From NCBI GenBank assembly GCA_018269075.1, contig JAFDVJ010000013.1:62001-126000 (forward strand): 64,000 nt of DNA, in the 5' to 3' direction. The position numbers and the translations under genes were made by a program. The notes beneath the pieces were generated by a model. The model ran no database searches. It was not told the origin of the DNA and saw only the letters and a list, made by a program, of their open reading frames with translations. The stretch is from Acidobacteriota bacterium. Lineage in GTDB: Bacteria; Acidobacteriota; Blastocatellia; Pyrinomonadales; Pyrinomonadaceae. Shown here one piece after another: positions 3,706 to 52,788 of this stretch (the stretch's first letter is position 1; the number at the start of each line of letters is the position of its first letter).

Positions 3706-3733
3706 GAACGATTAAGAAAAATTTATATGAGTA
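3675..3733 (+). repeat. Short direct repeats before the AAA+ gene
   Basis: A GATTAAGAAC unit is repeated in tandem and then leads into AAAATTTATATGAG, where the AAA+ gene starts. A similar block of TTTAGAA/TTTAAGAACG units leads into ATTTATATGAG before the gene at 5454. No Shine-Dalgarno is present at either start, so these may be an AT-rich initiation or regulatory element. Confidence 0.35.
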
Positions 3734-5141: not shown

Positions 5142-5150
5142 GAAGCAATT

Positions 5151-5423: not shown

Positions 5424-5453
5424 AACGGTTTAGAAAATTTAAGAACGATTTAT

Positions 5454-24863: not shown

Positions 24864-26144
24864 ATGGGAGATACCGTAACTACATTAAATGCTTTGATGG
24901 GCGAAAAGTTCTCGAAGAACGTCGTCCGCTCTTTCCATAACGAGCCGATCCTGCTGAATATGTTCGACAAGATCACGCCCGAAGAGATCAACCAGCGCGC
25001 TGCCCGGCTTCCCGTCGAGACGCGCCGCCAGGGATCGTTTCAGGGCGGCTCGGAAAACCAGTCGATGCCGACTGCCGTCAACCCGGAATGGAAGTACTGG
25101 ACGCCGTCCTTGAAGGCCGTCTATTCCACCGGCGAATTTTCGGGCTTCGCGCACTGGCAGACCAACGTCGAGACCGTCGACGGCCGGGCCAACAAGCTCA
25201 AACTCGGCGGGATGCTCGGCGAAAAGGTCGCGTCGCACCTCGAGTCGTTCAAGTTCTATCTCGATCAGGCGTGTTTTCGCGACGGCAAGGGCAAAATGGC
25301 CGACGCGATCGCGGCCCGTGTGACCGGCGCGGCCGGCACGGCGACCGTTACGCCGTCGTCGGCGAATTTCACGGTCGACGATATCCCGATCGGCGCGCGC
25401 TGCAACTTCTACTCGTCGGCTGGTACGATCCACAACACGGCGGCGTCCGTTTCGACCGTCACGGCCGTCAACGAATCGACCGGCGTCGTCACGTTCGACT
25501 CCGTTCCGACCGACGCGGCCGTCGGCGATTTCATCGTCTGGGAAGGCTCGTGGGATCTTCTGCTGAACGGCCTGACAGGTCTCGTGCAGGACCAGTCGAT
25601 CACCTTTCAGGGCGTCGACGTCACGAACTACCCGAATCTCAAGGCGAACACGTATTCGGCCGGCGCGGCGTTCGACATCAAGTTCGTCAACCGCATGCAG
25701 ACCCGGTCGAAGAAACGCCTCGGCGTGCAGCGTCCGCGCAACGACTACGTCATCCTGACGCATCCGAAGCAGGTCGATGCCTACCGCAACGCCGGTTACG
25801 CCCTGAACACGATCATTTCGGCGGACTCGAACCGCGAATCGAAAGTTCTGGACCTCGCTTACAGCAAAGTCCAGATCTCGGGGATGGACATTTACGAGTC
25901 GAACTCCTGCGGCGAAACGGATCTGTTCGGCCTGCGGATGAACGCGTTCAAACGGTACGAATTGTTCGCTCCGAACCTTCTGCCTTTGGGCGACGGCGAG
26001 AGCCAGTACCTGCTGCCGGTGCCCGGAACGAGCACCTACAAGCACCAGTACCAGTTCTACTTCGCGTTCTACGGCAACCTGCTTAACCTGCAGCCGGCCG
26101 CGAACTTCCGCATTTACGCGCTCGACAAAAGTAATTTGGGCTAG
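24864..26144 (+). CDS. Major capsid protein
   Basis: Follows the scaffold and precedes connector genes. The N-terminal helix (LNALMGEKFSKNVVRSFHNE), a long β-rich insertion with Thr/Val/Ser-rich strands (about residues 150-235), and the late PRNDYVILTHPKQVDAYRNA segment are characteristic of HK97-fold coat proteins of the P22/N4-like kind. Length 426 aa is normal. It builds the icosahedral shell. A hairpin and a homing endonuclease gene follow. Confidence 0.75.
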   Translation: MGDTVTTLNALMGEKFSKNVVRSFHNEPILLNMFDKITPEEINQRAARLPVETRRQGSFQGGSENQSMPTAVNPEWKYWTPSLKAVYSTGEFSGFAHWQTNVETVDGRANKLKLGGMLGEKVASHLESFKFYLDQACFRDGKGKMADAIAARVTGAAGTATVTPSSANFTVDDIPIGARCNFYSSAGTIHNTAASVSTVTAVNESTGVVTFDSVPTDAAVGDFIVWEGSWDLLLNGLTGLVQDQSITFQGVDVTNYPNLKANTYSAGAAFDIKFVNRMQTRSKKRLGVQRPRNDYVILTHPKQVDAYRNAGYALNTIISADSNRESKVLDLAYSKVQISGMDIYESNSCGETDLFGLRMNAFKRYELFAPNLLPLGDGESQYLLPVPGTSTYKHQYQFYFAFYGNLLNLQPAANFRIYALDKSNLG

Positions 26145-35993: not shown

Positions 35994-36686
35994 ATGGCGG
36001 ATTCTATTATTTCATCGCCCGGCACGCCGAGTCTTTCCGATCAGGGGACGAAGCTCTCGACGAGCGTTCCGATCGTCGGCAAAGGCACGTTTTCTTCGAC
36101 GGTGCCGGCTTTTACGTTTCAGGGGGCGGAAAATCTGGGTTTAACCCAGTCTTCCAATAACGCGTTGTACTTTGTCTACAACGGCACGACGATGACGATG
36201 AATTTCGGACTGTCACAGTTCATTATTCCATCGGCTTTCATCTTCGGCATTTCGCCATCCGACCCGTCGAGCGCGGCGGCGGACGTTGGGCTCGGGCGCG
36301 GCGCTGCGAACGTCTTCAAGATCACCAACGGCTCGACGGGCGGCGGAACCATTTCGACGCCCGCGACGACGCCGACGACGCTCGCGGCGAACCAGAACGA
36401 CTACGCTTTGGCGGGCGGCACGGGAAAATCTTATTTCATCCGGCTCGCGGCATCCGGCGCGGTCAACATCACCGGTCTTTCCATCTCGCAGGTGGACGGA
36501 CAGGAGCATTTTCTGGTCAACACCGGCGCGAACAACATCACTTTGACGCATCAGGATGCGTTATCGGCGGCGGGGAACCGTTTTTTGTGCTCGACCGGCG
36601 CAAATATCGTGCTTAGCCCGAATCAAGGAGCCGATTTGCTGTTCGACGCGACACAAAACCGGTGGCTTGTTTTTAAGAGGAACTAA
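35994..36686 (+). CDS. Short tail-fibre protein (230 aa)
   Basis: Starts after CAGGAGG. β-rich with Ser/Thr/Gly repeats. The last 105 residues (from TLAANQNDYAL to WLVFKRN) are homologous by eye to the last 105 of the tailspike that follows (from ITSNQNNYNP to WAVFKRN): shared N-Q-N-x-Y, GEKHLI/GQEHFL, NRFxCSTGA and VFKRN. This is probably a trimeric tip module. One-base overlap with the tailspike gene. Confidence 0.65.
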   Translation: MADSIISSPGTPSLSDQGTKLSTSVPIVGKGTFSSTVPAFTFQGAENLGLTQSSNNALYFVYNGTTMTMNFGLSQFIIPSAFIFGISPSDPSSAAADVGLGRGAANVFKITNGSTGGGTISTPATTPTTLAANQNDYALAGGTGKSYFIRLAASGAVNITGLSISQVDGQEHFLVNTGANNITLTHQDALSAAGNRFLCSTGANIVLSPNQGADLLFDATQNRWLVFKRN

Positions 36687-39493
36687 TGTCCAGCGCAATT
36701 ATTACAGCACATACCGCGATCTGGCCGCACGGCGGGACGGCGGCCTATCTTTATATCTTTGCCGACGATACTTTTCGCCCGGCCGGCGACGCGGTAACGG
36801 TTCTCGGCGGCAATTTTAACACCGGCGTCTACGCCAAAAAGATCACCTGCTCGGTCGCTTCCGGCATACTGACGATCCCGTCTTTTACGCTTTACGCGAC
36901 GACCGACGCCGTTCCGGACGATGTGCGCTATACGGCGTGGCTTTACGACGAGAACGACAACCGAAAAGAGGTTTTCTTGGCGGATTTCGACGTTCGGTCG
37001 ACCGATACGACGTGGGACACGATCATTGCCTATAATTCCGCGCACCGTTTTCGGAGCAAAACTTCGGAATTTTACGACAAAGATCAGATCGACACCAAGC
37101 TCGCCGCGCTCGCGCTCGCCCCGCTTGCGAGCGACGTGCAGATCGGGCGGTCTCGTCTTTCTGAACTGCCGTCGTCGCTCACGGATCCGGTCTCGATAGC
37201 GGACAACGACAAACGCGTCGGCGCGCGATACGACGCGGCCGGCTCTTTGCAGGCGACGGTGACGGCCATCGCCGGGGCCGGCGGAGGAATTATCGACGTG
37301 CATAAGTCTTTCACGCTGTCCTCAGCCGTGACGGTTCCGTCAACGGTATATCTGAGACAGCAGAACGGGGCGGTGATTACCAAATCCGGTTCCGGTGCGA
37401 TCACGTTTCAGGGCGTCGGTCTTACCGACCCGGAATCGCCGCTTCCGTTCTTCAAATCCTTTGCGGCCGGCGACATCCTTTTTACGGGATCGGTCTGGCC
37501 GCGCCGAATCTCGACCGAATTGTTCGACACCGGCAACTCATCGCTTTCCGACCGCCTGAGCCGGCTTAATTCCGCGTTCGGCACGAAACAGGTCTGTTTT
37601 TTGTGTTTTCCGCGCACGATTACCGCGCGGGTCGATTTTAATCCGAATAAGGAATTTTATTTTCTTCCCGGGGATTACCCGAACACGTCGAGCGCAAGCG
37701 GGTATTCCGTGTTCGGCCTTGAATCCAACACTGTGTTTCACGGAACGAGGGCGGCGCGGATTTATGAGTCCCCGAACGCTTACGGGATGCGGATCATCGG
37801 CATCGCCGCCAACGATCTTTACGGGTCAAAGACGGACATCGTAATCGAAAACCTGACCTTTATGGGGGATCCGGCTGCGGTGTACGACGGCACGAGCAGC
37901 ACGATTATTTTGGGAAATGTTACGCGCGGGGCCGTACGCAATTGCTCGATGTACCAAACTCACGCTTACGGAGTGATCCTTGGCGGCTACGGCGACACGG
38001 GCAATTACACACAGGACTCTGAGGTTACCGGCAACATCTTCACCGACATCGGCACGCAGGTTATCGCAATTATCAACGGTTACGGGAAAATCTCCCGAAA
38101 TTATATCGATGTTCGACACGCCACCTCGGCAGGCGCTTTAATCGATGTCGAGCCGAACAACGTGACCGATTTGGTCGGCAGCATCGAAGTATCCGATAAC
38201 TGGATAGATTGTTCCGGCGCGGTCGACGGCCTTTATTTTGGCGGAATCGATGTACAGGCAGCAGGCGGGGTCTCGACTTTGCTTACCGCCTCAATTCGAA
38301 ATAACGTCATTTTAGGACGCGAGCTTGATCCTTCAATCTCCGATTCAGGACGATTGTCCGGCGGCATTATTGCAATCGGCATCAATAATCTGACAATGGA
38401 AAACAATCTCGTTCGCTCCGCCAACGGCCGCGGTTATCACGTTTGGGACTGCCGTTACGCGGTCATTCAAAATAATGTCGCGGTCGGATGTGTGGATAAT
38501 TCCGGTAATTCGTCCTCGCTCGAGCTTCTTTCAACAGCGGATTCGGTTGTTAGAAATAATACGTTTCTCGAAACGTTTAATAGTTATACGCAGAGCTCCG
38601 GCATTCACGAAGCGGAGGTGTTTCATACTGCCACGTCGAGCGGGTCGGTTATAACAAAAACCACAACCGCCGGGATTCCGCGCCTTTATTCGCACCATAA
38701 AGGACTGTCGGTTTTTTTTAACGGCAGCACTTATTTGATCTCGTCGGTTAATACGACCACCCAAGCGCTGACGCTGAGCTCGGCAGTCGGTACGGTCGCC
38801 GTGAAAACGTGCGCGAGCGCGACGGACATCAATACCGGCACCGATACGATCACGATCAACTCGCACGGCTACTCAAACGGCTGTATTTTGCAATACACAG
38901 CCGGCACGGGCGCGATTGGCGGCCTGACGAGCGGATCTTACTACTACGTCGTTTCGGCGGCGGCGAATACCTTTAAACTGGCCTCGACTTTGGGCGGCAC
39001 TGCTATCGACTTAACGAGTACGGGGACGGGCACGCAAACCTTTACACCGGCTTTTGAGACGCGATTTTCAAACAATCTCTTTATCGGAAATAACGCGCCT
39101 GACGGGACGTTCCTTTGCTCGACCGGCACGAGTGTCATTAAATCCGACGGTCTGCGGGAGGTCGCGGACACCGCTGCGCCGGCGCAAATTACCTCGAACC
39201 AGAACAACTACAATCCGGGTCAGCAGGCCTACCGGATCGATCTTCAGACGGACGCGAGCCGGGACGTCACAGGCCTTGTTTTTACGTCGCCCGCGCAAAT
39301 CAACGGCGAAAAGCACCTGATCTACAACGCCGGCGCACAGAACATCGTGCTGAAGAATCAGTCGGCTTCGAGCACGGCCGCGAACCGCTTCGCCTGCTCG
39401 ACCGGCGCGGACATCACTTTGGCGGCGGGGCAGGCCGCCGATATCGAATACATCGGCTCGGCGCAGCGCTGGGCGGTTTTTAAGAGGAACTGA
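36686..39493 (+). CDS. Tailspike with right-handed β-helix (935 aa)
   Basis: Residues 1-110 form an attachment domain; a coil (KDQIDTKLAALALAPLASD) follows. Residues about 230-640 have β-helix coils, for example NLTFMGDPAAVYDG, VRNCSMYQTHAYGVILGG, TGNIFTDIGTQVIAIING, SIRNNVILGREL, MENNLVRSANGRGYHVWD, QNNVAVGCV, as in pectate-lyase-like polysaccharide-degrading tailspikes. A Thr/Gly-rich domain (about 710-790) and the tip module shared with the short fibre close it. It would bind and cleave host surface polysaccharide. Confidence 0.8.
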   Translation: MSSAIITAHTAIWPHGGTAAYLYIFADDTFRPAGDAVTVLGGNFNTGVYAKKITCSVASGILTIPSFTLYATTDAVPDDVRYTAWLYDENDNRKEVFLADFDVRSTDTTWDTIIAYNSAHRFRSKTSEFYDKDQIDTKLAALALAPLASDVQIGRSRLSELPSSLTDPVSIADNDKRVGARYDAAGSLQATVTAIAGAGGGIIDVHKSFTLSSAVTVPSTVYLRQQNGAVITKSGSGAITFQGVGLTDPESPLPFFKSFAAGDILFTGSVWPRRISTELFDTGNSSLSDRLSRLNSAFGTKQVCFLCFPRTITARVDFNPNKEFYFLPGDYPNTSSASGYSVFGLESNTVFHGTRAARIYESPNAYGMRIIGIAANDLYGSKTDIVIENLTFMGDPAAVYDGTSSTIILGNVTRGAVRNCSMYQTHAYGVILGGYGDTGNYTQDSEVTGNIFTDIGTQVIAIINGYGKISRNYIDVRHATSAGALIDVEPNNVTDLVGSIEVSDNWIDCSGAVDGLYFGGIDVQAAGGVSTLLTASIRNNVILGRELDPSISDSGRLSGGIIAIGINNLTMENNLVRSANGRGYHVWDCRYAVIQNNVAVGCVDNSGNSSSLELLSTADSVVRNNTFLETFNSYTQSSGIHEAEVFHTATSSGSVITKTTTAGIPRLYSHHKGLSVFFNGSTYLISSVNTTTQALTLSSAVGTVAVKTCASATDINTGTDTITINSHGYSNGCILQYTAGTGAIGGLTSGSYYYVVSAAANTFKLASTLGGTAIDLTSTGTGTQTFTPAFETRFSNNLFIGNNAPDGTFLCSTGTSVIKSDGLREVADTAAPAQITSNQNNYNPGQQAYRIDLQTDASRDVTGLVFTSPAQINGEKHLIYNAGAQNIVLKNQSASSTAANRFACSTGADITLAAGQAADIEYIGSAQRWAVFKRN

Positions 39494-39495
39494 CT

Positions 39496-41139
39496 ATGTT
39501 CGAAACGCAATCGGGAGGCGGCGGATTGTTCGGCCGCAAAAAAAGACGCTACGGGTACGGCGACGACGACGGATCGACGCCGCTTTCCGCCGCCGATCAC
39601 GACGCTCTGGCCGCCGCTTTCGACGCGACGCCGGTCGACCAGATCCCGCAGAAGCGGGATTTCACGCTTTTTCAGCCGGTCGAAGCGCCGCAGTTTTCTC
39701 CGCAGATGCCGAAAGACGTCGACGATCCGCCTTCGCCGGCCGATCCCGCCCAGACGGAAACCGTTACTTTCTTCCCGCAGATGCCTAAAAAGCAGGATTT
39801 TACCAATGACAATCAGGACGCTTTGCTGAAGTACGGCGAAACGCAGGATCGGCCGCAGCAGGCTTTAATGACGGACACCGGAGGAGGAGGAAATTTTGCT
39901 CCCGTCGTGCCGCAGCTCCGAATGAACGAGACCGTCGAAACCGCGCCGCCGATTGCACCGACCGCACCGACCGCACCGGCTCCGGTGTACGGCCCGCGCG
40001 ACCGCGTCCGGCAGGCCGAAGACCGGCTTTCCGAAATCCAGAACCGCGAGTACGGCTTCAAAAAATACCGTCAGGGCGATCAATTGGAGCCCGGCCAGAC
40101 GGTCGATAAAAAAGGCTACATCCGGGACGCCGACGGCAAGAAGATCCCGGGCAAAGACCGCGATAAAACGCACAATTTCTGGGACTTTCTGCGCGCTGCG
40201 GGCCTCGGCGCTCTGGGCGGCCTGCAGGCGGGCGGGCTCGGCGGCGCGATCGTCGGGGCCGGCATCGGCGGGGTCGGCGGCATTATCGACCGGAACTTCG
40301 ACGATAAACTCAAAGACAAAATGTTCGGCATTCCGAAGGCGCAGCGCCAACTGGAACAGGCGCGGCAGGCGGAGGAGGCGGATACCAGGCAGCGCGTGAC
40401 GGACGCTCAGGTGCGGAACATCGACGCCGACAACCAGTACCAGCGGGACAAAATGAGACAGGACGCGGACAGCAAACAGGCGCAGCAGTTGGAGCAGAAA
40501 CGCAAAAACTGGTACGCCAGAAATAAATATTTCGATCCTGCCAAAGCGACCGAAGCGCAACGGCGCGAGCTGGCCGAATTCGGCGAAACGCCCGAATCGG
40601 TCGGAAAATTCGATATGACGAAGCCGGAATTTAAGCAGATCGCGGGCCAAACCTTTAAATGGAGTCCGACCGAACAGGCTTTCGTCGACACGAATTTGCC
40701 GGCGGATAAATCCAAGTCAATGACGGAAATTACCGTCAAAGACCCGACCGACGGCAAGAGTTACACGTTCGTCACGACATCCGACCGTGCCGCCGGAATG
40801 CTCAACTCGCGACAGGTCGCGGGGCTTCAGATCGAAGCGGCGAAAGACCGGCAGATTTCCCAGCAGACGTGGCAGTCGCAGGAAAATGAAAAAAACCGGC
40901 AGCAGGCCGCCGCACTTGCCCGCGAACGAATGGAAATTTCGCGGCAGTCGCTCGCGCAGGCAAAAGCTCGATGGGAAGACGCCGTACAGCGCAATGACGA
41001 GAAAGCAAAGCGGCAGGCCGAAAAGGAACTGCGGGACGAAAAAGCTCGCGCTTTGCGGCTTAAAACGTTCATCAAGAGCAACAAATACACGAAGAACGAC
41101 ACCGACCTTCTGGACGAACTCGACGATTTGGATCAATAA
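39496..41139 (+). CDS. Internal virion (ejection) protein with glycine zipper (547 aa)
   Basis: First of four contiguous ejection-type genes. Disordered Pro/Gln-rich start; residues about 235-262 form a glycine zipper (GLGALGGLQAGGLGGAIVG), a membrane-inserting helix pair seen in ejected proteins; then about 200 residues of charged coiled coil (KDRQISQQTWQSQENEKNRQ). It may help form the trans-envelope channel. Stop and next start are adjacent. Confidence 0.55.
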   Translation: MFETQSGGGGLFGRKKRRYGYGDDDGSTPLSAADHDALAAAFDATPVDQIPQKRDFTLFQPVEAPQFSPQMPKDVDDPPSPADPAQTETVTFFPQMPKKQDFTNDNQDALLKYGETQDRPQQALMTDTGGGGNFAPVVPQLRMNETVETAPPIAPTAPTAPAPVYGPRDRVRQAEDRLSEIQNREYGFKKYRQGDQLEPGQTVDKKGYIRDADGKKIPGKDRDKTHNFWDFLRAAGLGALGGLQAGGLGGAIVGAGIGGVGGIIDRNFDDKLKDKMFGIPKAQRQLEQARQAEEADTRQRVTDAQVRNIDADNQYQRDKMRQDADSKQAQQLEQKRKNWYARNKYFDPAKATEAQRRELAEFGETPESVGKFDMTKPEFKQIAGQTFKWSPTEQAFVDTNLPADKSKSMTEITVKDPTDGKSYTFVTTSDRAAGMLNSRQVAGLQIEAAKDRQISQQTWQSQENEKNRQQAAALARERMEISRQSLAQAKARWEDAVQRNDEKAKRQAEKELRDEKARALRLKTFIKSNKYTKNDTDLLDELDDLDQ

Positions 41140-44100
41140 ATGGACGGATTCAGAGAAGATTTAGATCTGATTATGGCGGGCAAAAAGCCCAAAAAACGGG
41201 AGGCCGCGCCGCCGCCGGCGACGACGGACGTGTCTTCGATTCTCGACCGGATGCGCGGCGGCGAATCGATTCAGGAATCCGGCGGCCGAACCGGGATCGT
41301 CAACCCCGATTCCGGAGCCCTCGGCGAGTTTCAGGTAATGCCCGGCAACGTCAGGGACTGGACGCGCCGGCATTATAAACAAACCCTTACACCCGAACAG
41401 TTTCGCACCAATCCGGAAGCGCAGCGCGCGGTCTTTGACGGCGAAATGGGCGATTATTTGCGAAAAGCCCTTGCCCGTACCGGCGGGGACGAAGATAAAG
41501 CGATCCGGATGGCCGCCGCCGCCTGGTATGGCGGAAAAGGTTCGATGGGCCGTTACGACGATCCGACACCGCAGTATTACAAGGGTAAAAAATACCCGTC
41601 GTTTCGCGATTACACAAACGGCGTTTTAGGCCGCACGAAAGGACAAAAACCGAATAAAGACGGATTCGCCGACTTTCTCAAAGGACTCGATTCGATCGTG
41701 CCGGCAAAATCCGCAACGACGAACGGAATCGACGATTTTAAAAAAGGGCTCGATCAGGCGGCCGGCATCGGCCCGCCGCCCACAAATCCGCAGAACGCCG
41801 CAACGCCGCCTGTTGCGGTCAAAGCGCCCGTATTTAACAAAGAAGGCAATCAGGTGCCGGTTATCGGCGGCGAAGAACCCGTCCCGCAAACCGTTCCCCG
41901 GATCGCGCCACAAGTGCGAACGCTCGAACCCCAACAAACTCCAATCAACTACATTCCGACGCCGGCGATCGACACTCCGCCGCAGCCGACCGCGCCGACC
42001 CTTGCCGTCCGCCCGCGCGTCGTGCCGGCGACGCAGGTCGACCAATCCGCACCAGTCGCTCAAAACCAGCAGCCCGCGCCGCCGCAAACCGCTGTTCCCG
42101 GTCTTTCGGAAGAGGATACGATCGCCGTCCTCAAATACAAAAATTTACCCGACACGCCTGAAAACCGCGCGATCGTGCAAAAAGAAGCGAGCCAAAATGC
42201 GGATTTCGGTAAAGGCGTGGAAGTCAAAGCGACGGTCGACGCGCCGGCGCTTCGGGCGCAGAACGTCAGCCAAACGGCTCCGCCGGCAGTCATTCCGCCC
42301 GATGCCGTACAGGAAATCCAGTCCCCGAACGTTAAAACGTATAAAAACGTGCAGGAATCGCTCGACTCGTCGGCGGGAAGCTACCGTGTCGATTTGTCGA
42401 AAAAACCTGCGGGGATGAATTTGCGGGATTATATCTTTCGCGCCACCTTTGCGCCCGTCGCCGCCCGCTACGGCCTCAGCGTGGACGACGCGATGCGGAA
42501 GATGCAAGCCGGGCAGGGCGGCCTTTTGCAGCAGAACGACGCGGAACTCGCCGCGATGGGCGACAAGGAAACCGCCGAATATATCCGAACGCACGGCAAT
42601 AACTACACCGTGTCCTACAGCCGCGGGCTCGTCAACTGGCTTTTGGGCGGAACGCCGGACGATCCGGCCGAACCGCTCAAAAAGGAATTTAGCGAACGGC
42701 AGACGGATTCTTCGATGAATGCGGCGCTGCGCGATCCGATGCAAATCGATCCGCAGAACCAGAACGAGCTCGACGCGCGGTTTCGCACGGACGACTATCA
42801 GCGCGAAGCGGCGAAAAAACAAGACCTGATTAATCGCGGCATCGACCCGGATCTTTACGCCAAAGCCGAAGAATACGTCCGCACCTCGCCGACGGCGGGC
42901 GGAACACAAGCCGACATCGACAAGCAGTATCGATTGCTCAGGGACGCTCAGGTTTCCGAGGAGGGGCGAAAGCAGCTTGAAGATATGGGCGCCGCGATGC
43001 GCGACCCTTCGAATTCATACGGCGAGCTGACCGGTTCGTTTCTCGGCACGCTCGCCGAAAACGTCGGCGACTACGGCGCGGGCGCGGCCCGCATTTTTTC
43101 CAATTTGACCGGTTACGGCGACGGCGCTTTCACGAATCTTCAAAAACTCGGCAACGGGGCGCGCATCTTCGAGGCGAACGCCGCGAACCCCGACTTGATC
43201 GGACAAATCAACCGTTTTGCCGGTTCCGGTCTTGTCGAAGTGCCGAAATATATGGCCTTGTCCGCGCTTCCCGGCGGCGCGGTCGTCGGCTTCGGCGTCG
43301 ATTCGGGCCTTCGGTCGGCCGGACAGGGTAAAAACCCGCTCGAAGTCGGAAAAGACACGGCGAAAGGGATGCTTTTGGGCGGCCTGTTTTCCGCCGCGCC
43401 GAAAATCGAAGCTCTGGCCGAAAAAGGATTCACGCGGGCACTGGTCAATCCCGTGTTCGATGCCGGTAGGACGGCGGGGCCGGACATCGTGCTGGCGTCG
43501 AAACTGTTCGGCACGGGCGCGCGCATCGGCACGATCGGCGTCGGCGGATTCACCATCGAAAAAGGGTTCGGCGCGTCAAACGCCGACGCCGCGAAAAGCG
43601 CGATCCTGCTTGCTTTGACCGACGTGTTGATGGACGGCCGGCGGTTCGGGGAAATGAAAGACCTCGCCGGCAAAATCTTCAGATTCGGCAACCGCAGAAC
43701 CGGTGAAACGGTCAATGCGACGGTCAACAAAGACGGCAGCGTCGAACTGCTGAACGGCGAAGTTCCGCCCGCTGCCGTCGATGCCGAATTCGATCTTTCG
43801 AACGTTAAAGATGTGACGCCGGACGCCGACGGCGTTTATCGCGTCGCCGGCGACGGGGAGCCCGTCCGCGCGAAAGAAACCCGCAAAGCGCTCCCCGAAG
43901 CCCCGCAGGACGCGGCAAAGACCGAAACCGTTCAGCCCGAACCGCCGAAACCTTCAGGCGGCGAAGATATCGTCAAAACCTTAGACGAGTCGGACGTTTC
44001 GGTTACGTTCAAATCGCTGACCGAAGCCGGTTACTCGCCGGTCGAGGCCGGCAATCTGATCGAAAATGAGATGGCGAACCGCAGAAACGCGGATGCCGCG

Positions 44101-45000
44101 CCGAAGAAAACACTCGAAGTTAAAGATGCAAAAAATCCTGAACAAACCGCACCCGAAAGCACGAACGACGTTCTGCCGCAAACAAAATCCGCCTCATCCG
44201 AAACGACAGTGGCGGACAGAAATACGGTCGCCGACGATTTAAACAAGTTCGACACGGAAAGTCGGCAGACGGGCGGCGCGCTTGAGAAAAAAGCGCCGAC
44301 GAACCTTTCGCGCAATTTTCGCGCAGGCACGAACGACGCCACGCTGACGTTCGATTCCGAAGCGCAGCGCGACCTTTACGACTACTACGCCAACGAAAAG
44401 AAGGCGATGCGCGGCGGCGGCCAGCGCGCGGGAGATTCGCGCGTCAAGGATTTGTCGGCAATGCGCGACGATCTGGCAAAGCGCCTCAACGTCGAACCGG
44501 GCGCGATCTACGGCATCGCCAAACAGGTCGCCGAGGACGTCAAGGCGCAGATGAAGGGCGTCAGGCATCTCGAAGAACGAAAAGTCGCGGACAATGTTCT
44601 GACGAAGCGGTTTAAACAAACGAATCTGGCGGCGGGCGAGAATTCCGTTGCCGCCCCCGCGACGGCTCCGACTGAGGGGGCAAACGGCGCGGAAAATATG
44701 CAGAATAATATTCCGCCGGATGTACAAACCGCGCCCGAACCGGTGCAAGCGGAACCTGTAAAAGCGCCGGAAACGCCGAAAACTGAGCCTAACGCGCCTG
44801 TACAAGCGCCGGTCGAGATGTTCAAAAAGATCGACTCTCTCGCTCAAATGCCGAAAGAAGAGCGTCAGGCCGCGCTCAAACAGATGAAATCCGATTACGA
44901 CGGCTCCGGTTTCGAGCGCGCGCGCCGGATCAACGGCAACATCGCGGAGATTGTCCGGAGAATGGAAGAAAAAGGAATTTTGGAGAAAATATGCGATTAA
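41140..45000 (+). CDS. Internal virion protein with N-terminal lytic transglycosylase domain (1286 aa)
   Basis: Residues about 30-165 form a lysozyme-like SLT domain: catalytic ESGG motif at 46-49, then NPDSGALGEFQVMPGNVRDW, and AAAAWYGGKG. Its job would be to open peptidoglycan during DNA entry, like T7 gp16. A long Pro/Gln-rich linker (about 200-440), a helical body with a hydrophobic Gly-rich stretch (about 700-860) and a second disordered region follow. A short motif (DDLNKFDTESRQ) recurs as DELNKFDAESRQ in the giant at 45510. The stop overlaps the ferritin start. Confidence 0.75.
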   Translation: MDGFREDLDLIMAGKKPKKREAAPPPATTDVSSILDRMRGGESIQESGGRTGIVNPDSGALGEFQVMPGNVRDWTRRHYKQTLTPEQFRTNPEAQRAVFDGEMGDYLRKALARTGGDEDKAIRMAAAAWYGGKGSMGRYDDPTPQYYKGKKYPSFRDYTNGVLGRTKGQKPNKDGFADFLKGLDSIVPAKSATTNGIDDFKKGLDQAAGIGPPPTNPQNAATPPVAVKAPVFNKEGNQVPVIGGEEPVPQTVPRIAPQVRTLEPQQTPINYIPTPAIDTPPQPTAPTLAVRPRVVPATQVDQSAPVAQNQQPAPPQTAVPGLSEEDTIAVLKYKNLPDTPENRAIVQKEASQNADFGKGVEVKATVDAPALRAQNVSQTAPPAVIPPDAVQEIQSPNVKTYKNVQESLDSSAGSYRVDLSKKPAGMNLRDYIFRATFAPVAARYGLSVDDAMRKMQAGQGGLLQQNDAELAAMGDKETAEYIRTHGNNYTVSYSRGLVNWLLGGTPDDPAEPLKKEFSERQTDSSMNAALRDPMQIDPQNQNELDARFRTDDYQREAAKKQDLINRGIDPDLYAKAEEYVRTSPTAGGTQADIDKQYRLLRDAQVSEEGRKQLEDMGAAMRDPSNSYGELTGSFLGTLAENVGDYGAGAARIFSNLTGYGDGAFTNLQKLGNGARIFEANAANPDLIGQINRFAGSGLVEVPKYMALSALPGGAVVGFGVDSGLRSAGQGKNPLEVGKDTAKGMLLGGLFSAAPKIEALAEKGFTRALVNPVFDAGRTAGPDIVLASKLFGTGARIGTIGVGGFTIEKGFGASNADAAKSAILLALTDVLMDGRRFGEMKDLAGKIFRFGNRRTGETVNATVNKDGSVELLNGEVPPAAVDAEFDLSNVKDVTPDADGVYRVAGDGEPVRAKETRKALPEAPQDAAKTETVQPEPPKPSGGEDIVKTLDESDVSVTFKSLTEAGYSPVEAGNLIENEMANRRNADAAPKKTLEVKDAKNPEQTAPESTNDVLPQTKSASSETTVADRNTVADDLNKFDTESRQTGGALEKKAPTNLSRNFRAGTNDATLTFDSEAQRDLYDYYANEKKAMRGGGQRAGDSRVKDLSAMRDDLAKRLNVEPGAIYGIAKQVAEDVKAQMKGVRHLEERKVADNVLTKRFKQTNLAAGENSVAAPATAPTEGANGAENMQNNIPPDVQTAPEPVQAEPVKAPETPKTEPNAPVQAPVEMFKKIDSLAQMPKEERQAALKQMKSDYDGSGFERARRINGNIAEIVRRMEEKGILEKICD

Positions 45001-45503
45001 AATCACTACTCGGCGCGGACGCGCGGAAACTCGTCCAGAAGGCGGTCTACTTCGAACTGTTTGCCTCGCATCTTTACCGTCAGATCGCGGCCTGCATGCA
45101 GAGCGCCGGCTTTTTCGGCGTTCAAAAATGGTTCGAGCAGGAGGCGGCGGACGAGCTCGTGCATTTCGGGATCTGGCGCGATTACCTGAACGACCGGTCG
45201 GATATGGCCGAGATCCCGCAGCTTCCTCTGATCAAGGAACGGCCCGAAACTTTGGGCGATGCGCTTCAGCTCGCCTTTAAGACCGAAAAAGATCTCGGCG
45301 ACTTCTATGCTGATATGTACGATCGGCTCGAAGACGATATCCGCGACATTACGACGGCGACGAGGGTGCTGAAATTCATCGAGATCCAGACGGAATCGAT
45401 CGGCGAATACGGCGATTATCTGGCGCGGCTCGAACGCTGCGCGGGCGACGCGGCGGCGATCCTTGCTCTGGATCAATTTATCGGCGATAAGGCGAACGGC
45501 TAA
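44991..45503 (+). CDS. Phage-encoded ferritin (170 aa)
   Basis: A four-helix ferritin by pattern, with every expected ferroxidase ligand in register with E. coli FtnA: Glu22 in AVYFELFASHLYRQ (FtnA Glu17), Glu55 and His58 in AADELVHFGIWRDYLNDR (Glu50, His53), Glu99 in AFKTEKDLGDFY (Glu94), and Gln133 in EIQTESIGEY (Gln127). Length matches bacterial ferritins. It would oxidise Fe(II) and store Fe(III) in a cage, or bind iron in the virion. It overlaps the preceding ejection-protein gene by ten bases, has a GGAG site, and lies seven bases before the next ejection gene, so it is expressed with the virion internal proteins. Confidence 0.85.
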   Translation: MRLKSLLGADARKLVQKAVYFELFASHLYRQIAACMQSAGFFGVQKWFEQEAADELVHFGIWRDYLNDRSDMAEIPQLPLIKERPETLGDALQLAFKTEKDLGDFYADMYDRLEDDIRDITTATRVLKFIEIQTESIGEYGDYLARLERCAGDAAAILALDQFIGDKANG

Positions 45504-45509: not shown

Positions 45510-48500
45510 ATGAATAATTGCAGGTTTTACCCGTTAATCGACGGCAAAAAAGAAGAAATGGATTTCGACCGGTTTCGCGCGTGGCTTCACGCGGGCGGCT
45601 TGGAAAAGATGCTGCCGGACTATCGTCTTCCGGGTAAAATATCAAGGGCAAAAGAAACCGCGCCGGCGGCGGAGGAGGAGGAGGCAAACCCGTTCGTGTC
45701 CGTCGAAGCCCCGAAAGAGTCTCGCGCGACGGCTGTCAAAGAACCGAGCCTTGCGGACGAGCTCAACAAATTCGATGCGGAAAGCCGGCAAAGAGCCGAA
45801 TCGCCCGCAAAACCTGCAAACCACACGCAGCGCGCCGCGCTGCGCCGCTCGGGCGACGAGGCGGATCTTGCCGAGCACGGAATCGAACCGCTCGGGCCGA
45901 AGGGCGAATACGGTCAGACGTCGTTCCATCTGCGCCGCGCGATGCTTGGCCGCGATTCGTCCTTGCTCGACTCTTTCGGCCGTGGTTTCGGTCTCGATCT
46001 CGATCAGAAAGACCGCGCCAATTCCGTCAATGCCGTGATGGATCATCTGGCGAGTCTCGGCGGCAAAAGCCGTTCGTCGAACCTTTCGCCGGAAGATTAC
46101 GACGGTATTTTGAAAAATCACGCCGACCGGCTGCCGGACGACGCGATCGACGCGCTCGTCGCGGCGATGAATCACCAGACCGAATGGTTCGCCGACCGGA
46201 ACGCTTTCACGGACGCTTTGACGCCGATCTTAGAAAAAATAGATTATAATTCGGTCAAATCATTAAAGGACGTGCCGATTTCTTTAAGGCGCGAAATATT
46301 CGACTTAAGTAAAAAATATGAAAAACTCGGCCAAACCGCCGTCAAAAACGCATTCGACGAAGCCTTCCGAAATTTTCAAAGAAGAACTGAGGAAAGCGCT
46401 GCTCGCGCCGAAAGTCGCGCCGATCAGGGAGCGATACAAAAAAATAGCGAAGGCGAGACGCAAAAGGAATCCGGCGCTGATCGACGATTACCCGGCGAAT
46501 CTGGAATAGCTTTTGCAAAAGCCAGTCCGGATGACGCCTTTTATCCGCCGGATTTTTACGAGCATGAGGCGTCGTGGTTTCGCGCGGTCGATAACTTCGT
46601 CAAAGACGGGGACTGGGCGCAGCCTAAAAGGGTTCTCGGTCATACGCCGCAGGTTTTAATAAAACTCGGGTTTACCGACAGGTTGATTACGATTACGCCG
46701 TCGATTATAGCCAAAGCGATGCGCGACCACGATTTGAGCCCGGCGATCATGAAACAGATCCCGCGCCAGATCGCAAGCCCCGTGATGGTTTTCGAATCCG
46801 CCAAGCAAAACGGCTCGAAAGTCGTCGTAACCTCGCTTTTCGATAACCGCGGCCGGCCGGTGACGGTCGTCTTGATGCCCGACGGCAAAATCGAGCACAT
46901 CGACGTCAACCCGATACTGAGCGCATACGGACGAAACGATAAAGCGGATTTTAAGAGATGGTTTGAAAAAGGACTGCTGAGGTATGCTAACAAAGAAAAA
47001 AGCCGGAAGTGGTTTCAGTCTGCCGGGCTACAATTGCCCATAGAGAAAACCGTTGCCTCCGGTACTTCCAGAATACTAAATGAGCAGGATATTGTCAAAA
47101 AATCCGGGCCACAGATGGCCGCCGCCAAAGATAAAGCGGAAAGCATCGAATCGAAACGCTTCGATGCCGACGCCGCGCGGGCGTTCGAGGCGCTCGACCG
47201 GCTCGCCAAGGCGCGCGTTCGCGATCTGGCGCGCAACGCGACCTTTTCGGTCGCGGACGGTCTTTTTACGGCAAACCCCGAAGGGATGACGCTTTTCCGG
47301 CTGGCGATTATGAAGGTGCAGGGCGAAGACCCGTCGATGTTTTACGGATTTTACGCCGACCCGGAAAGAAAAGAACTGATCGGGCGCGAGCTCGACCGGT
47401 TCGCCGGGGAGCTCGCGCGCCTGAGCCCGCCGCTCGGCCGCCGGATGGCTAAATTCAGCGAGGCGTGGAATGGCGCAGGAAGCGACGCGGCGGCCGTGCT
47501 CGGAGGTTTCGGGCGCGTCACGAAATACGCGACGCAGGAAGAACTCCTGCACCGGGCGGACTTTCGCGTCAGAAATCACACGAACCGGAGCCTCAAGCCC
47601 TACGTGGCGCTTGACTCGTACAATAAAGCGTTTCAGAATCTAAAAGAAGGCGCGTACCGGGACGGATCGGCCTATACCATTCATAACGAGATCATCGGAA
47701 AACTAGGACGCGACGATGCTGCGGAGGAATTGGGCATCAGTTGGAATGAGGTTGACGAAATCGAAGCGCTTCATCATGAGCAGCTTGCCAAGCACGAAGT
47801 AAGCCCCGAAGATTATCGCGAGCGGTATCAGGACATCAGCGAACGCGCCGATAAAGGAATCGAAAAATATGAACGAATTTCTGGAAAACTTGACGCCCGC
47901 AATGGAGAAAATGACGCCATCACAGGTGGATCGGACGGTGCTTTTGATGAAGGTTCGGGAGCAGTTGGGCCCGGAAGCTCTGAAACCCGCGCAGATTCTA
48001 CTTCGCGAAACTCCGATTTCCTCCCCGCAGTTCGACGAGGCGGCGTTCTGGACGGAAGTGGAAAAAGCACTGAAATAGCTTTCGCCAAAGCGACCGCGAC
48101 GCGCAAAATTCTGGATGCTCTCGACAAAACGCTCGCCAAATCGACGAATCTCTCGCCGACGCGCGCGCTGGAGAACGTCGTCAACAAGAACCTCCAGCAG
48201 CTCCGTCACGCCGACGAAGACGCCTACAACGCCGTCCTGAAGCTCGCCGGCGAGCAGGCCCAGTTGACCGCGCATCTTTTGACCGGTCTCGACCCGTCGC
48301 AGACCACGGCCGCCGGCAAAACCCCGCAGGAGATCGCCGAAGCGATCCACGCCCGCAATCTCGTCGACACGGTGAACGCTCTTCAAGTCGCGGGCCTGAT
48401 TGTCCCTGTTACGAAAAGCGCGCCGACGCCGACCGCGATCGGCGGCAAAACCGCCGGCGTGATGCGGATCGCCGGCGTCCCGTACGCCGCCCCGCTGTGG

Positions 48501-49922
48501 CTCAAAAAAGAGCTCACGCCGGTTTTCGAAGGAACGCCCGATCCGAACGCCGTTCAAAAGGTCGTCCGCGTCCTTAACCGCGTCGGCGCGGCCGGCATCT
48601 TCGACGCCGTTTTTCACTCGGCGAACGTGATCGGGTCGGTCATCGGCACGACGCCCTACGTCGGCAAAGACATCGCGAGCCGCACGATCGGCAATACGCC
48701 GGCGACGAAATGGCTGACGACGCTCCTGCATCTCGCCTTTACAAATCCTGAAAAGGTCGATCCCGCCATCTTGCGGGAGATGGCCGACGCGGGCGTGATC
48801 CCGGCGCGTTACGGGCGGGAAACTTACTCGAAGAAACTCGCCGCGCGGCTCGGCGCGCACCGGAAAATGACGAGTCTCGGCCCGGCGATCAGCGGCCCGA
48901 AAGGTCTGGACATCCGGGCACGAATCGTGATGTGGAAAATCGGAAAGCACATCAACCCGAAAGCCTCGAATTCCGAGATGGCGGATTTCGTCAACCAGCT
49001 CGGGATTTATTCCCGCGCGATGGAATCGCAGTTGTCGCGTTCGCTGAAGCGTTCGGACATCGCGCCGTTCTTTACGGCCGGCTCGCAGATGTGGAAAAAC
49101 GGCGTTCTGATGTGGCTCGGCAAAACGCCGATGCCGAACGAGGATCTGCCGCTCGCAAATCGAATCGCCGCCCGGCTTCAGCAGCAGTTCGGCGCGGGCG
49201 TTCTCGGGCTTGTCGCGATGTGGATCGCCCTGTCTTTGCTTTACCGGCAAAAACTGCCGTGGGATGACAAGGATTCGCGGTTTATGCAAATTCCTTTGAA
49301 TGACGACGACCGAAAATCCGACCTGGCTAAAAAGATTTTCGGCGATAACGAAAAAACCGCCTATGTCGGTCTCGGCTTTTTCTCGCCGCTCGTCGAGCGC
49401 GGCGGCCGCGCGCTCGGCCTGACCGGAATTTACGATACGGCCGTTTTGGGCGGAACTAAAACGCAAATGGCGGAGGAAGGGGAAAAAGATGCCATCAACT
49501 CGCTGCTGCATCCGATCACGACCGGCCCGGCCGTCCACGCCGGCTTTATCGGTCTGACCGGCCGCGAGCCGCAAATTAAGGCGATGCGCGAAAGCAACGG
49601 CGAGTTCGGCGCCACGTTCTGGAAAGCGGAACTTCCGAAGGGAGCCGGCGCGGGCCGGTCGCTTCTCGAAGGCGCGCTCGAACTTAACCCGATGGCCGGC
49701 GATATTCTTCATAACCTCGGCGTCAACCGCGACCAGAAGGACAAACCGACCGAAGGGGAGGCAAACGTCTACTTGAGATCGGTGATGGATATGTCGTTCC
49801 CGCGGCTTTTCAAAGGCCCGGTCGACCGGGACAAGGCGCGCGCGCGGATGGCGGACGATACGCCGCCGGCCGGCGCAGGGGTCGGTCCGGCGATTCGCAG
49901 GGGGCTCAAAAGAAAAAAATAA
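45510..49922 (+). CDS. Giant internal virion polyprotein with MuF-C domain (1470 aa)
   Basis: Modular. Residues about 345-508 match the phage MuF C-terminal domain: VLGHTPQVLIKLGF, ITPSIIAKAMRDHDLSP, QIASPVMVFESAKQNGSKVV and KGLLRYANKEKSRKW, a predicted polymorphic-toxin or nuclease-like module. The C-terminal third (about 1010-1290) is a helical, partly hydrophobic region (SQLSRSLKRSDIAPFFTAGS, then a membrane segment GAGVLGLVAMWIALSLLY) typical of the largest ejected protein of podoviruses. A junction motif IAFAKA occurs twice, after each of two linkers that also code out of frame (46318-46509, 47869-48078). Confidence 0.7.
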   Translation: MNNCRFYPLIDGKKEEMDFDRFRAWLHAGGLEKMLPDYRLPGKISRAKETAPAAEEEEANPFVSVEAPKESRATAVKEPSLADELNKFDAESRQRAESPAKPANHTQRAALRRSGDEADLAEHGIEPLGPKGEYGQTSFHLRRAMLGRDSSLLDSFGRGFGLDLDQKDRANSVNAVMDHLASLGGKSRSSNLSPEDYDGILKNHADRLPDDAIDALVAAMNHQTEWFADRNAFTDALTPILEKIDYNSVKSLKDVPISLRREIFDLSKKYEKLGQTAVKNAFDEAFRNFQRRTEESAARAESRADQGAIQKNSEGETQKESGADRRLPGESGIAFAKASPDDAFYPPDFYEHEASWFRAVDNFVKDGDWAQPKRVLGHTPQVLIKLGFTDRLITITPSIIAKAMRDHDLSPAIMKQIPRQIASPVMVFESAKQNGSKVVVTSLFDNRGRPVTVVLMPDGKIEHIDVNPILSAYGRNDKADFKRWFEKGLLRYANKEKSRKWFQSAGLQLPIEKTVASGTSRILNEQDIVKKSGPQMAAAKDKAESIESKRFDADAARAFEALDRLAKARVRDLARNATFSVADGLFTANPEGMTLFRLAIMKVQGEDPSMFYGFYADPERKELIGRELDRFAGELARLSPPLGRRMAKFSEAWNGAGSDAAAVLGGFGRVTKYATQEELLHRADFRVRNHTNRSLKPYVALDSYNKAFQNLKEGAYRDGSAYTIHNEIIGKLGRDDAAEELGISWNEVDEIEALHHEQLAKHEVSPEDYRERYQDISERADKGIEKYERISGKLDARNGENDAITGGSDGAFDEGSGAVGPGSSETRADSTSRNSDFLPAVRRGGVLDGSGKSTEIAFAKATATRKILDALDKTLAKSTNLSPTRALENVVNKNLQQLRHADEDAYNAVLKLAGEQAQLTAHLLTGLDPSQTTAAGKTPQEIAEAIHARNLVDTVNALQVAGLIVPVTKSAPTPTAIGGKTAGVMRIAGVPYAAPLWLKKELTPVFEGTPDPNAVQKVVRVLNRVGAAGIFDAVFHSANVIGSVIGTTPYVGKDIASRTIGNTPATKWLTTLLHLAFTNPEKVDPAILREMADAGVIPARYGRETYSKKLAARLGAHRKMTSLGPAISGPKGLDIRARIVMWKIGKHINPKASNSEMADFVNQLGIYSRAMESQLSRSLKRSDIAPFFTAGSQMWKNGVLMWLGKTPMPNEDLPLANRIAARLQQQFGAGVLGLVAMWIALSLLYRQKLPWDDKDSRFMQIPLNDDDRKSDLAKKIFGDNEKTAYVGLGFFSPLVERGGRALGLTGIYDTAVLGGTKTQMAEEGEKDAINSLLHPITTGPAVHAGFIGLTGREPQIKAMRESNGEFGATFWKAELPKGAGAGRSLLEGALELNPMAGDILHNLGVNRDQKDKPTEGEANVYLRSVMDMSFPRLFKGPVDRDKARARMADDTPPAGAGVGPAIRRGLKRKK
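46318..46509 (+). CDS. Embedded +1-frame ORF in the giant ejection gene (63 aa)
   Basis: From about 46370 the +1 frame uses the GC-rich codons usual here (gcg, ctg, ctc, ccg, atc) while the main frame uses rare ones and codes a low-complexity linker. The product ends KKIAKARRKRNPALIDDYPANLE and is basic and helical. No Shine-Dalgarno at the ATG. The stop is followed at once by the 14-base palindrome GCTTTTGCAAAAGC. It may be a true overprinted gene or the relic of one. Confidence 0.4.
   Translation: MKNSAKPPSKTHSTKPSEIFKEELRKALLAPKVAPIRERYKKIAKARRKRNPALIDDYPANLE
47869..48078 (+). CDS. Embedded +1-frame ORF with ribosome site (69 aa)
   Basis: ATG preceded by AAAGGA at ten bases. The product (MNEFLENLTPAMEKMTPSQV..., ending FDEAAFWTEVEKALK) looks like a normal soluble helical protein and has the local codon preference, while the host frame of the giant gene reads a Gly/Ser/Asp-rich linker here. 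The stop lies beside GCTTTCGCCAAAGC, a near copy of the palindrome found after the first embedded ORF. Confidence 0.5.
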   Translation: MNEFLENLTPAMEKMTPSQVDRTVLLMKVREQLGPEALKPAQILLRETPISSPQFDEAAFWTEVEKALK

Positions 49923-49965: not shown

Positions 49966-50469
49966 ATGATTTCTCAAAACTATAAAATCGGAAACGGAGC
50001 ATTTTTTGTGGCGAAATACAATAAATTCGAAGACATCAGACTCAAGGTGAAAAACTGGGCACTCGAAGGCAAATGCGCGATCCGGGAGATTCAGAACCCG
50101 GGCGACGCGTGGGTTCTGAATATCGCCCCCGACGCATCTTACGGCGTCGCCGTCAGTATGAAGCTCGACACGCCGGATCTTATCAGTTTCGGAACGACTC
50201 TCCAATTAAATGAATATTCGTCCTCGATCGGTTCGATGACCCACAAAGAGCGAAAATCTCTGGTGCTGGGCATAAGGCTTTACCTCGCTTCTTTCGAAAG
50301 ATTCGGCTTCGACGTGCCGGACGATCTTTCTTACGTAAACATCAATTATTTTCTTTTTCTTGACGAGTTGACGAAGGCCCGCTTCTGGACTGCCCTTTAC
50401 GGGATCGATAAAATGCTTTCGGCTTCGACTTGGATGATCGATAAAAAGCTGCTTTCGGCAAACGAATAG
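49966..50469 (+). CDS. Hypothetical protein, DUF2299-like pattern (167 aa)
   Basis: Last gene of the phage-side block; separated from the giant gene by 43 bases and lower in GC. α/β protein: CAIREIQNPGDAWVLNIAPD, then helices ERKSLVLGIRLYLASFERFG and a hydrophobic INYFLFLDELTKARFW. A distant likeness to DUF2299 is possible. It could be a moron or the first host gene; start at 50008 (GTG, VAKYNKFED) is an alternative. Confidence 0.45.
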   Translation: MISQNYKIGNGAFFVAKYNKFEDIRLKVKNWALEGKCAIREIQNPGDAWVLNIAPDASYGVAVSMKLDTPDLISFGTTLQLNEYSSSIGSMTHKERKSLVLGIRLYLASFERFGFDVPDDLSYVNINYFLFLDELTKARFWTALYGIDKMLSASTWMIDKKLLSANE

Positions 50470-50826
50470 CGCGCGCGAATCGTCCGAAACGCTTCCTGAG
50501 CACATCGAAACGAACGCTCCGATTTTTCGTCAAAAAATACCGGTGAAAAAGGATAAAAAGCGATAAAACGGAAAATTCGCGGCGGATACGCCGACAAAGG
50601 CCGTAAAAACGAATAATTTCAGATATAAAAACCAGACGCAAAAGCGTTCGAAAGTGAGTCGGGGGTGCATAAGCAAAAGCTTAACAAACCCGCGAACGTT
50701 CGGCAACGGTTTTCTCGTTTTTCGGCAAAATTTCGTCATTTTTTCAAGCTCTCAGTACAATTCTTAGGTAAAAGTGGATTTTAAGCAGTTTTGACGACCT
50801 TGTTTTAGTCCTTATTTTATAAGGGT
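50470..50826. other. Non-coding phage/host boundary stretch
   Basis: No gene supported. AT-richer than its surroundings. Contains a small hairpin TAAGC-AAAA-GCTTA (50670-50683) and a 10-base palindrome CGAACGTTCG (50693-50702). The right attachment site is probably here or near, but it cannot be proved because the left prophage end is outside the window. No tRNA or tmRNA fragment was seen. Confidence 0.35.
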
Positions 50827-51023
50827 TTTAGAGATTTGAGAATGTCAGAGCTTTTCCGTATCAGGGAAAAGACCTGCGATATCTGGCCGAGTTTCTCGAT
50901 CATCTCGAATATCTTTCGGCACTGATGATCAGGAAAAAGGACGAGACCGAATTGTTCGACCATTATTTCGGCGGCATCTGCGAAAAGTTCGACTGCCGCG
51001 AGCTCGCCGAGCGAAACGATTGA
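50827..51023 (+). pseudogene. Truncated coding remnant at the boundary
   Basis: After a TAG at about 50824 the frame is open to TGA at 51021 and codes about 64 residues of protein-like sequence (GKDLRYLAEFLDHLEYLSAL, then RKKDETELFDHYFGGICEKF) with no usable start codon at its 5' end. This looks like the C-terminal part of a helical protein whose beginning was lost, possibly at phage integration. Convergent with the fatty acid hydroxylase. Confidence 0.4.
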
Positions 51024-51040
51024 GTCTCGAAGTCCAGTGA

Positions 51041-52273: not shown

Positions 52274-52305
52274 AACGGTTCTGATTGTCGATTCGGAATT
52301 CAGAG

Positions 52306-52340
52306 CCAATATAATGCAGAAAAGCGTGAAATTGCAAAAA
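52306..52340 (-). promoter_or_regulatory. Promoter of the fatty acid hydroxylase gene
   Basis: On the minus strand TTGCAA, an 18-base spacer and TATATT precede the ATG at 52273 by about 35 bases. No clear Shine-Dalgarno is visible before the ATG. Confidence 0.5.
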
Positions 52341-52753
52341 TCGACCGGACGAACGGCGGATTCCGCGCGGACAGCCGCCGTTCGCTCTCGATTTCGAAGC
52401 GCCGATTCCGCCGTCGATCCGTCGATGACCGAACAGCCGAATACCTGCCTTATTTTATAGACGACGTTCGCCGCGTTCCGTCCGGCGGAAGAAACGACGC
52501 TTCGAAAACGATCCTGTTCGATTCGGCCCGCCGGCGCGCGCGGCCTCCGGTTCGAGCGCCCGCAGAATCCGCGAAAAGCCGCGAAAAGAAATGGATTCGA
52601 AGATTTCTCGACTCTTTTCGCATCCTTCGCCGGATTTTGCGGCCCGCCTTTCCCGAAGCCCGCCGGCCGGCCGGCGGAATCGGTTTATTTCCGAACGGAC
52701 GTCTTCATCGAATAACAAATCCCGCTTTTCGTCGAAATTTACGTCGGAAAGCG
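52341..52753. other. Non-coding stretch between convergent-upstream genes
   Basis: Several short ORFs cross this stretch on both strands, but all are Arg/Ser-rich shadows of GC-rich DNA. Apart from the flanking promoter and heptad repeats I see no structure. Confidence 0.4.
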
Positions 52754-52788
52754 AAATCCGAAATCCGAAATCCGAAATCCGAAATCAG
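52754..52788. repeat. One-armed heptad repeat (AAATCCG)
   Basis: Four tandem AAATCCG units and one degenerate unit run into the stop codon of the peptidoglycan-binding gene. No inverted arm is found nearby. The same unit makes both arms of the locus at 61777-61939. Confidence 0.8.

Follow-up and report, generated by a model that had tools for sequence, protein, structure and literature searches.

In the present work, we examine a ferritin gene carried by a prophage of an Acidobacteriota bacterium. The DNA analyzed, hereafter called the window, is a stretch of 64,000 nucleotides (nt) corresponding to positions 62001-126000 of a contig of 127,121 bases in a 7.4-Mb draft genome. The ferritin gene lies between two very large genes of the late operon, whose products are referred to below as the upstream and downstream giants. 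The features directly concerned are listed here with their window coordinates, strand, size in amino acids (aa) and, in brackets, the basis of each assignment:

41140..45000, + strand: upstream giant, 1286 aa, with a transglycosylase-like N-terminal domain and its sole Cys at residue 1285 (similarity, Cys count)
41272..41718, + strand: transglycosylase/glycosylase-like domain, residues 45-193 of the upstream giant (similarity; ESGG and NPDSGALGEFQVMP in the sequence)
44914..44994, + strand: C-terminal tail ERARRINGNIAEIVRRMEEKGILEKIC of the upstream giant, counterpart of the family tail (position-anchored score)
44982..44985, + strand: GGAG, a Shine-Dalgarno-like site 5 nt ahead of the ferritin ATG (sequence)
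44991..45503, + strand: phage ferritin, 170 aa, ATG at 44991 and TAA at 45503 (Pfam, AlphaFold, ligand alignment)
45510..49922, + strand: downstream giant, 1470 aa, MuF_C (phage-BECR), with its sole Cys at residue 4 (Pfam, Cys count)
45510..45620, + strand: N-terminal leader MNNCRFYPLIDGKKEEMDFDRFRAWLHAGGLEKMLPD of the downstream giant, counterpart of the family leader (likeness to the leaders of the divergent loci L220 and L227)
46713..47006, + strand: MuF_C domain, residues 402-499 of the downstream giant (PF18819, E 7.8e-26)

The three genes are tightly packed. The ferritin open reading frame (ORF) shares 10 bases (44991-45000) with the upstream gene, as the first-pass annotation of this DNA had reported, and its stop codon is separated from the downstream ATG by six bases, one fewer than that annotation had counted. 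The ORF is intact and conserved, which rules out a frameshift or an assembly artefact.

By profile, fold and ligands, the product of 44991-45503 is a true Ftn-type ferritin with a complete A/B di-iron site. It matches the PF00210 (Ferritin) profile with an E-value of 2.1e-14 (54.1 bits for a cut-off of 24.5), its closest solved relative is the ferritin of Thermotoga maritima (E 1.7e-12), and a profile made from the phage ferritin family described below matches it at 9e-34. The AlphaFold model (pLDDT 94.4, pTM 0.88) displays five helices (residues 9-39, 42-68, 88-117, 120-150 and 154-168) that form the four-helix di-iron bundle and a C-terminal helix E. When this model was submitted to Foldseek, the ferritins of T. 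maritima, Escherichia coli, Vibrio and Helicobacter were retrieved with TMq values of 0.85-0.93; the superposition on E. coli FtnA called for by the first-pass annotation (TM ~0.9) thus agrees with its prediction of a ferritin. Chance similarity between helical proteins is ruled out by the E-values, the fold and the ligands taken together. Neighboring classes of the superfamily do not accommodate the protein. The FtnA equivalog model of NCBIfam (NF007638) scored 22.5 and 49.6 bits, below its curated cut-off of 178. Dps proteins have an inter-subunit site and no helix E, whereas the ligands are here intra-chain, in the register of Ftn, and the model has a helix E. Bacterioferritins carry helix D Glu and His ligands where Ftn has Gln127, whereas Gln133 is here invariant and position 136 is Ser or Ala.

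The window ferritin, used on its own in degenerate-pattern scans of IMG/VR and GTDB, gave no match, nor did the terminase of the window or its upstream giant in pattern scans of the same kind. The family was entered through a distant IMG/VR match (L055, 40% identity; 76.3 bits against PF00210), found via a mixed alignment with cellular ferritins. Clade-specific scans of IMG/VR then returned 12, 82 and finally at least 88 viral contigs carrying a ferritin of this family; sampling was pattern-based, with up to 80 loci per scan. The family alignment comprises 81 members, 64 of them distinct. Among 50,697 named phage records, no family-level ferritin was encountered, matches being either weak (23-29% identity) or absent. 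When applied to 84,980 species genomes of bacteria and archaea, the clade patterns identified one clear carrier, a contig of a Zoogloea metagenome-assembled genome, on which the end of the ferritin is followed by a polyvalent giant as in the phage loci. A full-text search of open-licence papers yielded no account of this phage ferritin family or of its arrangement between two giants.

In a tree with 19 cellular ferritins, all from the phylum of the host, the phage ferritins are monophyletic (support 100/99) and carried by long branches. A bacterial housekeeping origin is ruled out by this separate clade, by the 20-30% identity of the closest cellular ferritins, and by 98 further genomes from the family of the host, in which the phage-type ferritin was not found; on the same grounds, a recent pick-up of a host gene is unlikely. 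In agreement with this, the other clear PF00210 matches of the host (L001-L003) look Dps-like when judged by eye.

The alignment places Glu22, Glu55, His58, Glu99 and Gln133 of the window ferritin in register with Glu17, Glu50, His53, Glu94 and Gln127 of FtnA. The first-pass annotation had recognized this full set of ferroxidase ligands, and the family bears it out: E22, Y29, E55, H58, E99 and Q133 are invariant in 81 of 81 aligned phage ferritins, even though these diverge down to ~40% identity outside the conserved sites. A change that the first-pass annotation did not mention concerns the C site. Its glutamates, E126 and E130, are a trait of bacterial FtnA and do not define all ferritins. 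At the positions equivalent to FtnA Glu126 and Glu130, the window protein has Ile132 and Ser136, and Glu never occurs at either position in the 81 members, where 132 is hydrophobic or Thr and 136 is Ser or Ala. A phage signature, Q-x-x-S-[IV]-G-E-Y-G-D, stands where FtnA has the C-site motif EQxxEE, and its G-x-Y-G-D portion does not vary among the aligned members. Ratios of non-synonymous to synonymous substitutions of ~0.03-0.24 in close ferritin pairs indicate purifying selection, deeper pairs approaching saturation. From these residues, the loss of the C site suggests a ferritin tuned for the di-iron reaction and not for long-term iron storage. The phage proteins thus share with E. coli FtnA and T. 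maritima ferritin the five-helix fold with helix E, the intra-subunit A/B ligands and the equivalent of Tyr24; they differ in being phage-encoded, only ~17-25% identical, devoid of C-site Glu throughout the family and marked by the QxxSxGEYGD signature.

The position of the gene is conserved as well. The ferritin lies between two giants in 71 of the 81 loci; in 69 of them, the upstream gene ends with a conserved 56-residue tail and the downstream gene opens with a conserved leader, the other two being L110, whose upstream sequence is missing, and the window, whose tail and leader are weaker. The giants mostly measure 900-2700 aa and mostly leave gaps of -14 to +12 nt (~15 bases) to the ferritin gene. 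The same order is found in the very divergent L220, L227 and L269. The claim that the ferritin belongs to a virion-ejection gene module, together with the conserved neighborhood by which it was to be judged, is thus upheld by dozens of uncultured phages in which giant ejection genes recur beside it. In other loci, the ferritin gene follows a portal gene (L101, L103, L146 and probably L100) or a Mu-F-type minor head gene (L063, L150); in L145, it is found beside uncharacterized genes. Shine-Dalgarno matches are mostly stronger for the ferritin than for the downstream giant, which suits a higher copy number whether the protein is destined for the virion or for the cytosol.

The association extends to the facing ends of the giants. 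When IMG/VR was searched with nothing but the 56 C-terminal residues of the upstream giants, 62 loci were retrieved, with the ferritin gene next in 61; the exception, L197, reads MTPTMIISADI (a ferritin start), then departs, 386 bases ahead of the contig end. The leader follows the pattern C-x-[YF]-...-G-...-[FM]-[KR]-x-[YFW]-L. Neither tail nor leader had a match at E 1 in the 50,697 named phage records, and neither was found in the ferritin-free relatives DC33, ctEw122 and H66. The window tail, anchored at its terminal Cys, ranks first among 1260 positions of the upstream giant; of 100,000 shuffles, 12 score as high.

Both giants have recognizable relatives among phage proteins. Residues 45-193 of the upstream giant match Streptomyces phage proteins annotated 'glycosylase/minor tail protein' (E-values up to 8e-11), in line with the transglycosylase-type gene first proposed at this position, and a Pfam scan of the protein gave no domain match. 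Lytic transglycosylase-like domains are carried by the upstream giants of several family lineages, and residues 601-787 of the one in L066 are ~50% identical to phage transglycosylase/structural proteins. The giant MuF-C gene announced downstream is confirmed by the PF18819 match; its counterparts in relatives contain ART-PolyVal, LPD38, Zeta toxin or RelA/SpoT domains. A large multidomain late-operon protein with a polyvalent domain therefore adjoins the ferritin. Polyvalent proteins have been inferred to be packaged and injected, in a study that nowhere mentions ferritin (Iyer et al. 2017, PMC5512222). Two regions of gp60 of Pseudomonas phage H66 align with the giants of locus L144, residues 773-950 with the upstream one (56% identity) and residues 2813-3658 with the downstream one (63% identity). 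H66 gp60 is a single chain of 3787 aa, annotated in its record as 'verified by mass spectrometry as part ...' and reported as a described structural protein (PMC5217972). Because this single virion chain matches both giants of L144, the ferritin gene sits at the split of a homologous chain. The DarB-like giant of the Bcep22-like phage JC1 was likewise detected in virions (PMC9144972). Polyvalent proteins and these DarB-type giants have domain kinds in common with both ferritin neighbors, whereas the H66 and JC1 giants are single chains with no associated ferritin. One further relative, Limnohabitans phage DC33 (PQ492659.1), is recorded as a member of the Inoviridae, yet its 3125-aa giant is akin to those of tailed podovirus-like phages; this taxonomy line looks wrong.

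Cysteine is nearly absent from the giants, except where they face the ferritin. A Cys occurs within the last three residues of all 50 distinct upstream tails and within residues 2-9 of all 57 distinct leaders. Among 49 long upstream giants, 43 contain no second Cys, and the downstream giants are free of Cys outside the leader. In the window, these residues are Cys1285 in the 1286-residue upstream giant and Cys4 in the 1470-residue downstream one, whereas 5-13 Cys are present in other late proteins, for instance the terminase and the spike. Ferritin-free single-chain relatives have no Cys at the C terminus. The ferritin family itself is without conserved Cys, and a disulphide between the giants and the ferritin was set aside for that reason. 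Judging from the sequences, the single-Cys ends look like a functional pair meeting at the ferritin, perhaps through a disulphide, an iron-thiolate link or docking.

The element harboring this gene set is a prophage of ~63 kb, recognized as such because an integrase, terminases and a head gene are enclosed between bacterial flanks. The integrase is encoded at contig positions 49406-50845, and the right end of the prophage is located near window positions 50,470-51,040. Both terminase genes, small and large, and the gene of the major head protein lie within the window, whose remaining phage features include:

17896..20199, + strand: large terminase (phrog_38, 3.3e-52)
24864..26144, + strand: major head protein (phrog_14242, 9.3e-16)
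36686..39493, + strand: tail spike or fibre-like protein, 935 aa (weak PHROG tail matches)
39496..41139, + strand: Cys-free protein of 547 aa containing a hydrophobic, glycine-rich stretch (sequence)
49966..50469, + strand: DUF2299 protein (E 4.8e-08), encoded immediately behind the MuF_C giant and closing the operon

The 547-aa product is probably a further internal or ejection protein. The left flank of the element encodes an ABC transporter and an outer membrane protein of TonB type, both bacterial; the right flank holds bacterial genes for a fatty acid hydroxylase (51041-52309, minus strand), a fatty-acid oxidation protein and a GGDEF protein. The kinds of genes in these flanks would fit an Acidobacteriota host. 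A search for attachment (att) sites at the prophage ends returned low-complexity heptamer repeats only. An identical 35-base stretch of CGAAATC heptamers is present at contig positions 49105-49143, beside the integrase, and at window positions 52752-52786, to the right of the prophage; it could be att-related or merely a common intergenic repeat. A candidate ferritin-free sister prophage (G149) was ruled out: the phage is unrelated and carries a tape-measure-like gene.

The fold, the conserved catalytic ligands, the monophyly, the operon position and the near-exclusive link to tail and leader lead us to favor, as the probable explanation, a phage-specific ferroxidase-type ferritin working within the virion ejection module, carried and deployed with both giants. 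It would be made late, in translational linkage with the transglycosylase-bearing upstream giant and the downstream polyvalent effector. Packaging is suggested by homologues of these neighbors, the proteins for which virion evidence exists. The ferritin would travel in the virion, docked probably via the conserved tail that ends the upstream giant, with the leader of the downstream giant perhaps serving as a second docking point. At entry, it would bind and oxidize free Fe(II), using up O2 or peroxide, and this would protect the entering DNA and effectors against Fenton damage. Protection from oxidative damage at entry, already suggested for this gene, is thus a possible role. A 24-subunit ferritin cage measures ~12 nm, far wider than a tail channel. 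It is therefore implausible that a cage filled with iron would be delivered by the tail route, and subunits would either have to pass unassembled or remain inside the capsid.

Several observations weigh against this explanation. Many IMG/VR contigs are near-identical, so that the locus counts are not independent, and the tail sampling was seeded from ferritin phages. The window's own tail and leader are not significant by profile hidden Markov model alone. The pair of giants is absent in 10 of the 81 loci and hence not obligatory; in the near-identical L147-L149, the gene preceding the ferritin encodes a GroES-like C-terminal domain. Finally, a late operon position is by itself no proof of packaging.

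The main competitor is a late-infection accessory enzyme that would stay in the dying host, outside the virion, and capture iron or detoxify oxygen species during virion assembly, a part proposed elsewhere for the Dps and Mn-catalase of phages. The conserved catalytic ligands and the GroES-like neighbor would fit such an enzyme, the mostly stronger Shine-Dalgarno sites would yield it in larger numbers than are required of an ejection protein, and phage Dps proteins have been read in this manner (PMC8008677). However, a free cytosolic enzyme requires neither a slot between ejected proteins nor a strict link to a dedicated tail, and the loci without giants still place the ferritin mostly beside portal or minor head genes. 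On account of this gene order, the tail linkage and the portal and MuF alternatives, we prefer a ferritin carried in the virion and consider the cytosolic enzyme a serious contender of distinctly lower probability.

The terminal cysteines invite a more specific proposal, which we put forward tentatively: the facing Cys ends of the two near-Cys-free giants would assemble with the ferritin into a redox/iron module, in which iron-oxygen chemistry couples, protects or releases the injected proteins. A narrower and rather doubtful version of the virion hypothesis has ferroxidase turnover (Fe(II) + O2 to peroxide) driving or protecting a disulphide or iron-thiolate link between the giants, whose halves would be freed in the reducing cytoplasm. 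The presence of a single Cys at the facing ends of both giants, window included, and its absence from the C terminus of ferritin-free single chains would agree with such a link; on the other hand, Cys scarcity may simply suit proteins that unfold to pass the tail, and the ferritin offers no conserved Cys.

It is improbable that the subunits have been repurposed as a mere helical adaptor or plug of the ejection apparatus, devoid of iron chemistry. The portal, MuF and ejection genes around the ferritin, and the ferritin-like structures predicted in 'prohead protease' proteins of uncultured phages, would accord with such a part. A purely structural role is nevertheless disfavored because it does not predict that the A/B ligands and the adjacent Tyr remain invariant in 81 sequences falling to ~40% identity. 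The weakest proposal, that ferritin-held iron on the tail exploits host iron-uptake receptors as a Ferrojan horse, has been advanced in the literature and discussed for gp217 of Vi01-like phages, but these phages infect TonB and FeoB mutants equally well (PMC10892097), the cage is too big for the tail channel, no receptor-binding feature was seen, and the iron-bearing tail of the first-pass annotation is at odds with partners that are internal or ejected proteins rather than fibres, all of which makes it very improbable here.

Other phages encode members of the ferritin superfamily. Dps and Mn-catalase of 'Gratiaviridae' and Lactobacillus phages may also handle iron or oxygen (PMC8008677, PMC6669764); they differ in not being Ftn-type and in having no reported link to ejection proteins, the Lactobacillus one lying near replication genes. 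In the Vi01-like phage Sajous1, gp217 was modeled as a ferritin, proposed to share an operon with a tail completion protein and seen by mass spectrometry (PMC10892097); it is set beside the window ferritin by description only, its assignment relying on Phyre fold modeling and no link to giant ejection proteins being reported. Contigs L056 and L057 carry canonical ferritins that are likewise phage-borne and Ftn-type, but in the tree these group, with long branches, on the side of the cellular ferritins, and they retain an EQxEEE-type motif. In L057, the ferritin (3106-3594, EQVEEE kept) is located between large genes (1540-3093 and 3619-5478) read by eye as portal and scaffold/protease, after a terminase-like gene, in a phage different from that of the window; this looks like an independent recruitment beside head genes. 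In L056, the ferritin (1938-2426) is found among T4-like genes, by eye a reductase and a DNA polymerase. The predicted structures mentioned above are BFVD matches (A0A6J7WIS1 and A0A6J7WPK9), ferritin- or Dps-like, in uncultured Caudovirales proteins; they suggest that capsid assembly proteins may hold further ferritin-like domains.

Whether phage particles carry iron or iron enzymes is a question of which the Ferrojan horse is the best-known form. The family described here brings to it a concrete gene set, with conserved catalytic residues, probably ejected partners and more than one head/tail architecture, and the single-Cys ends around the ferritin provide a sharp clue to a physical coupling of the giants. 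If the ferritin is absent from the virion, its genes would point to late-phase iron control tied to ejection genes. If it is present there, iron and oxygen chemistry would belong to the entry stage of infection. Should the redox/iron module, of a previously undescribed kind, prove true, the ferritin would be a working part of the phage ejection machine.
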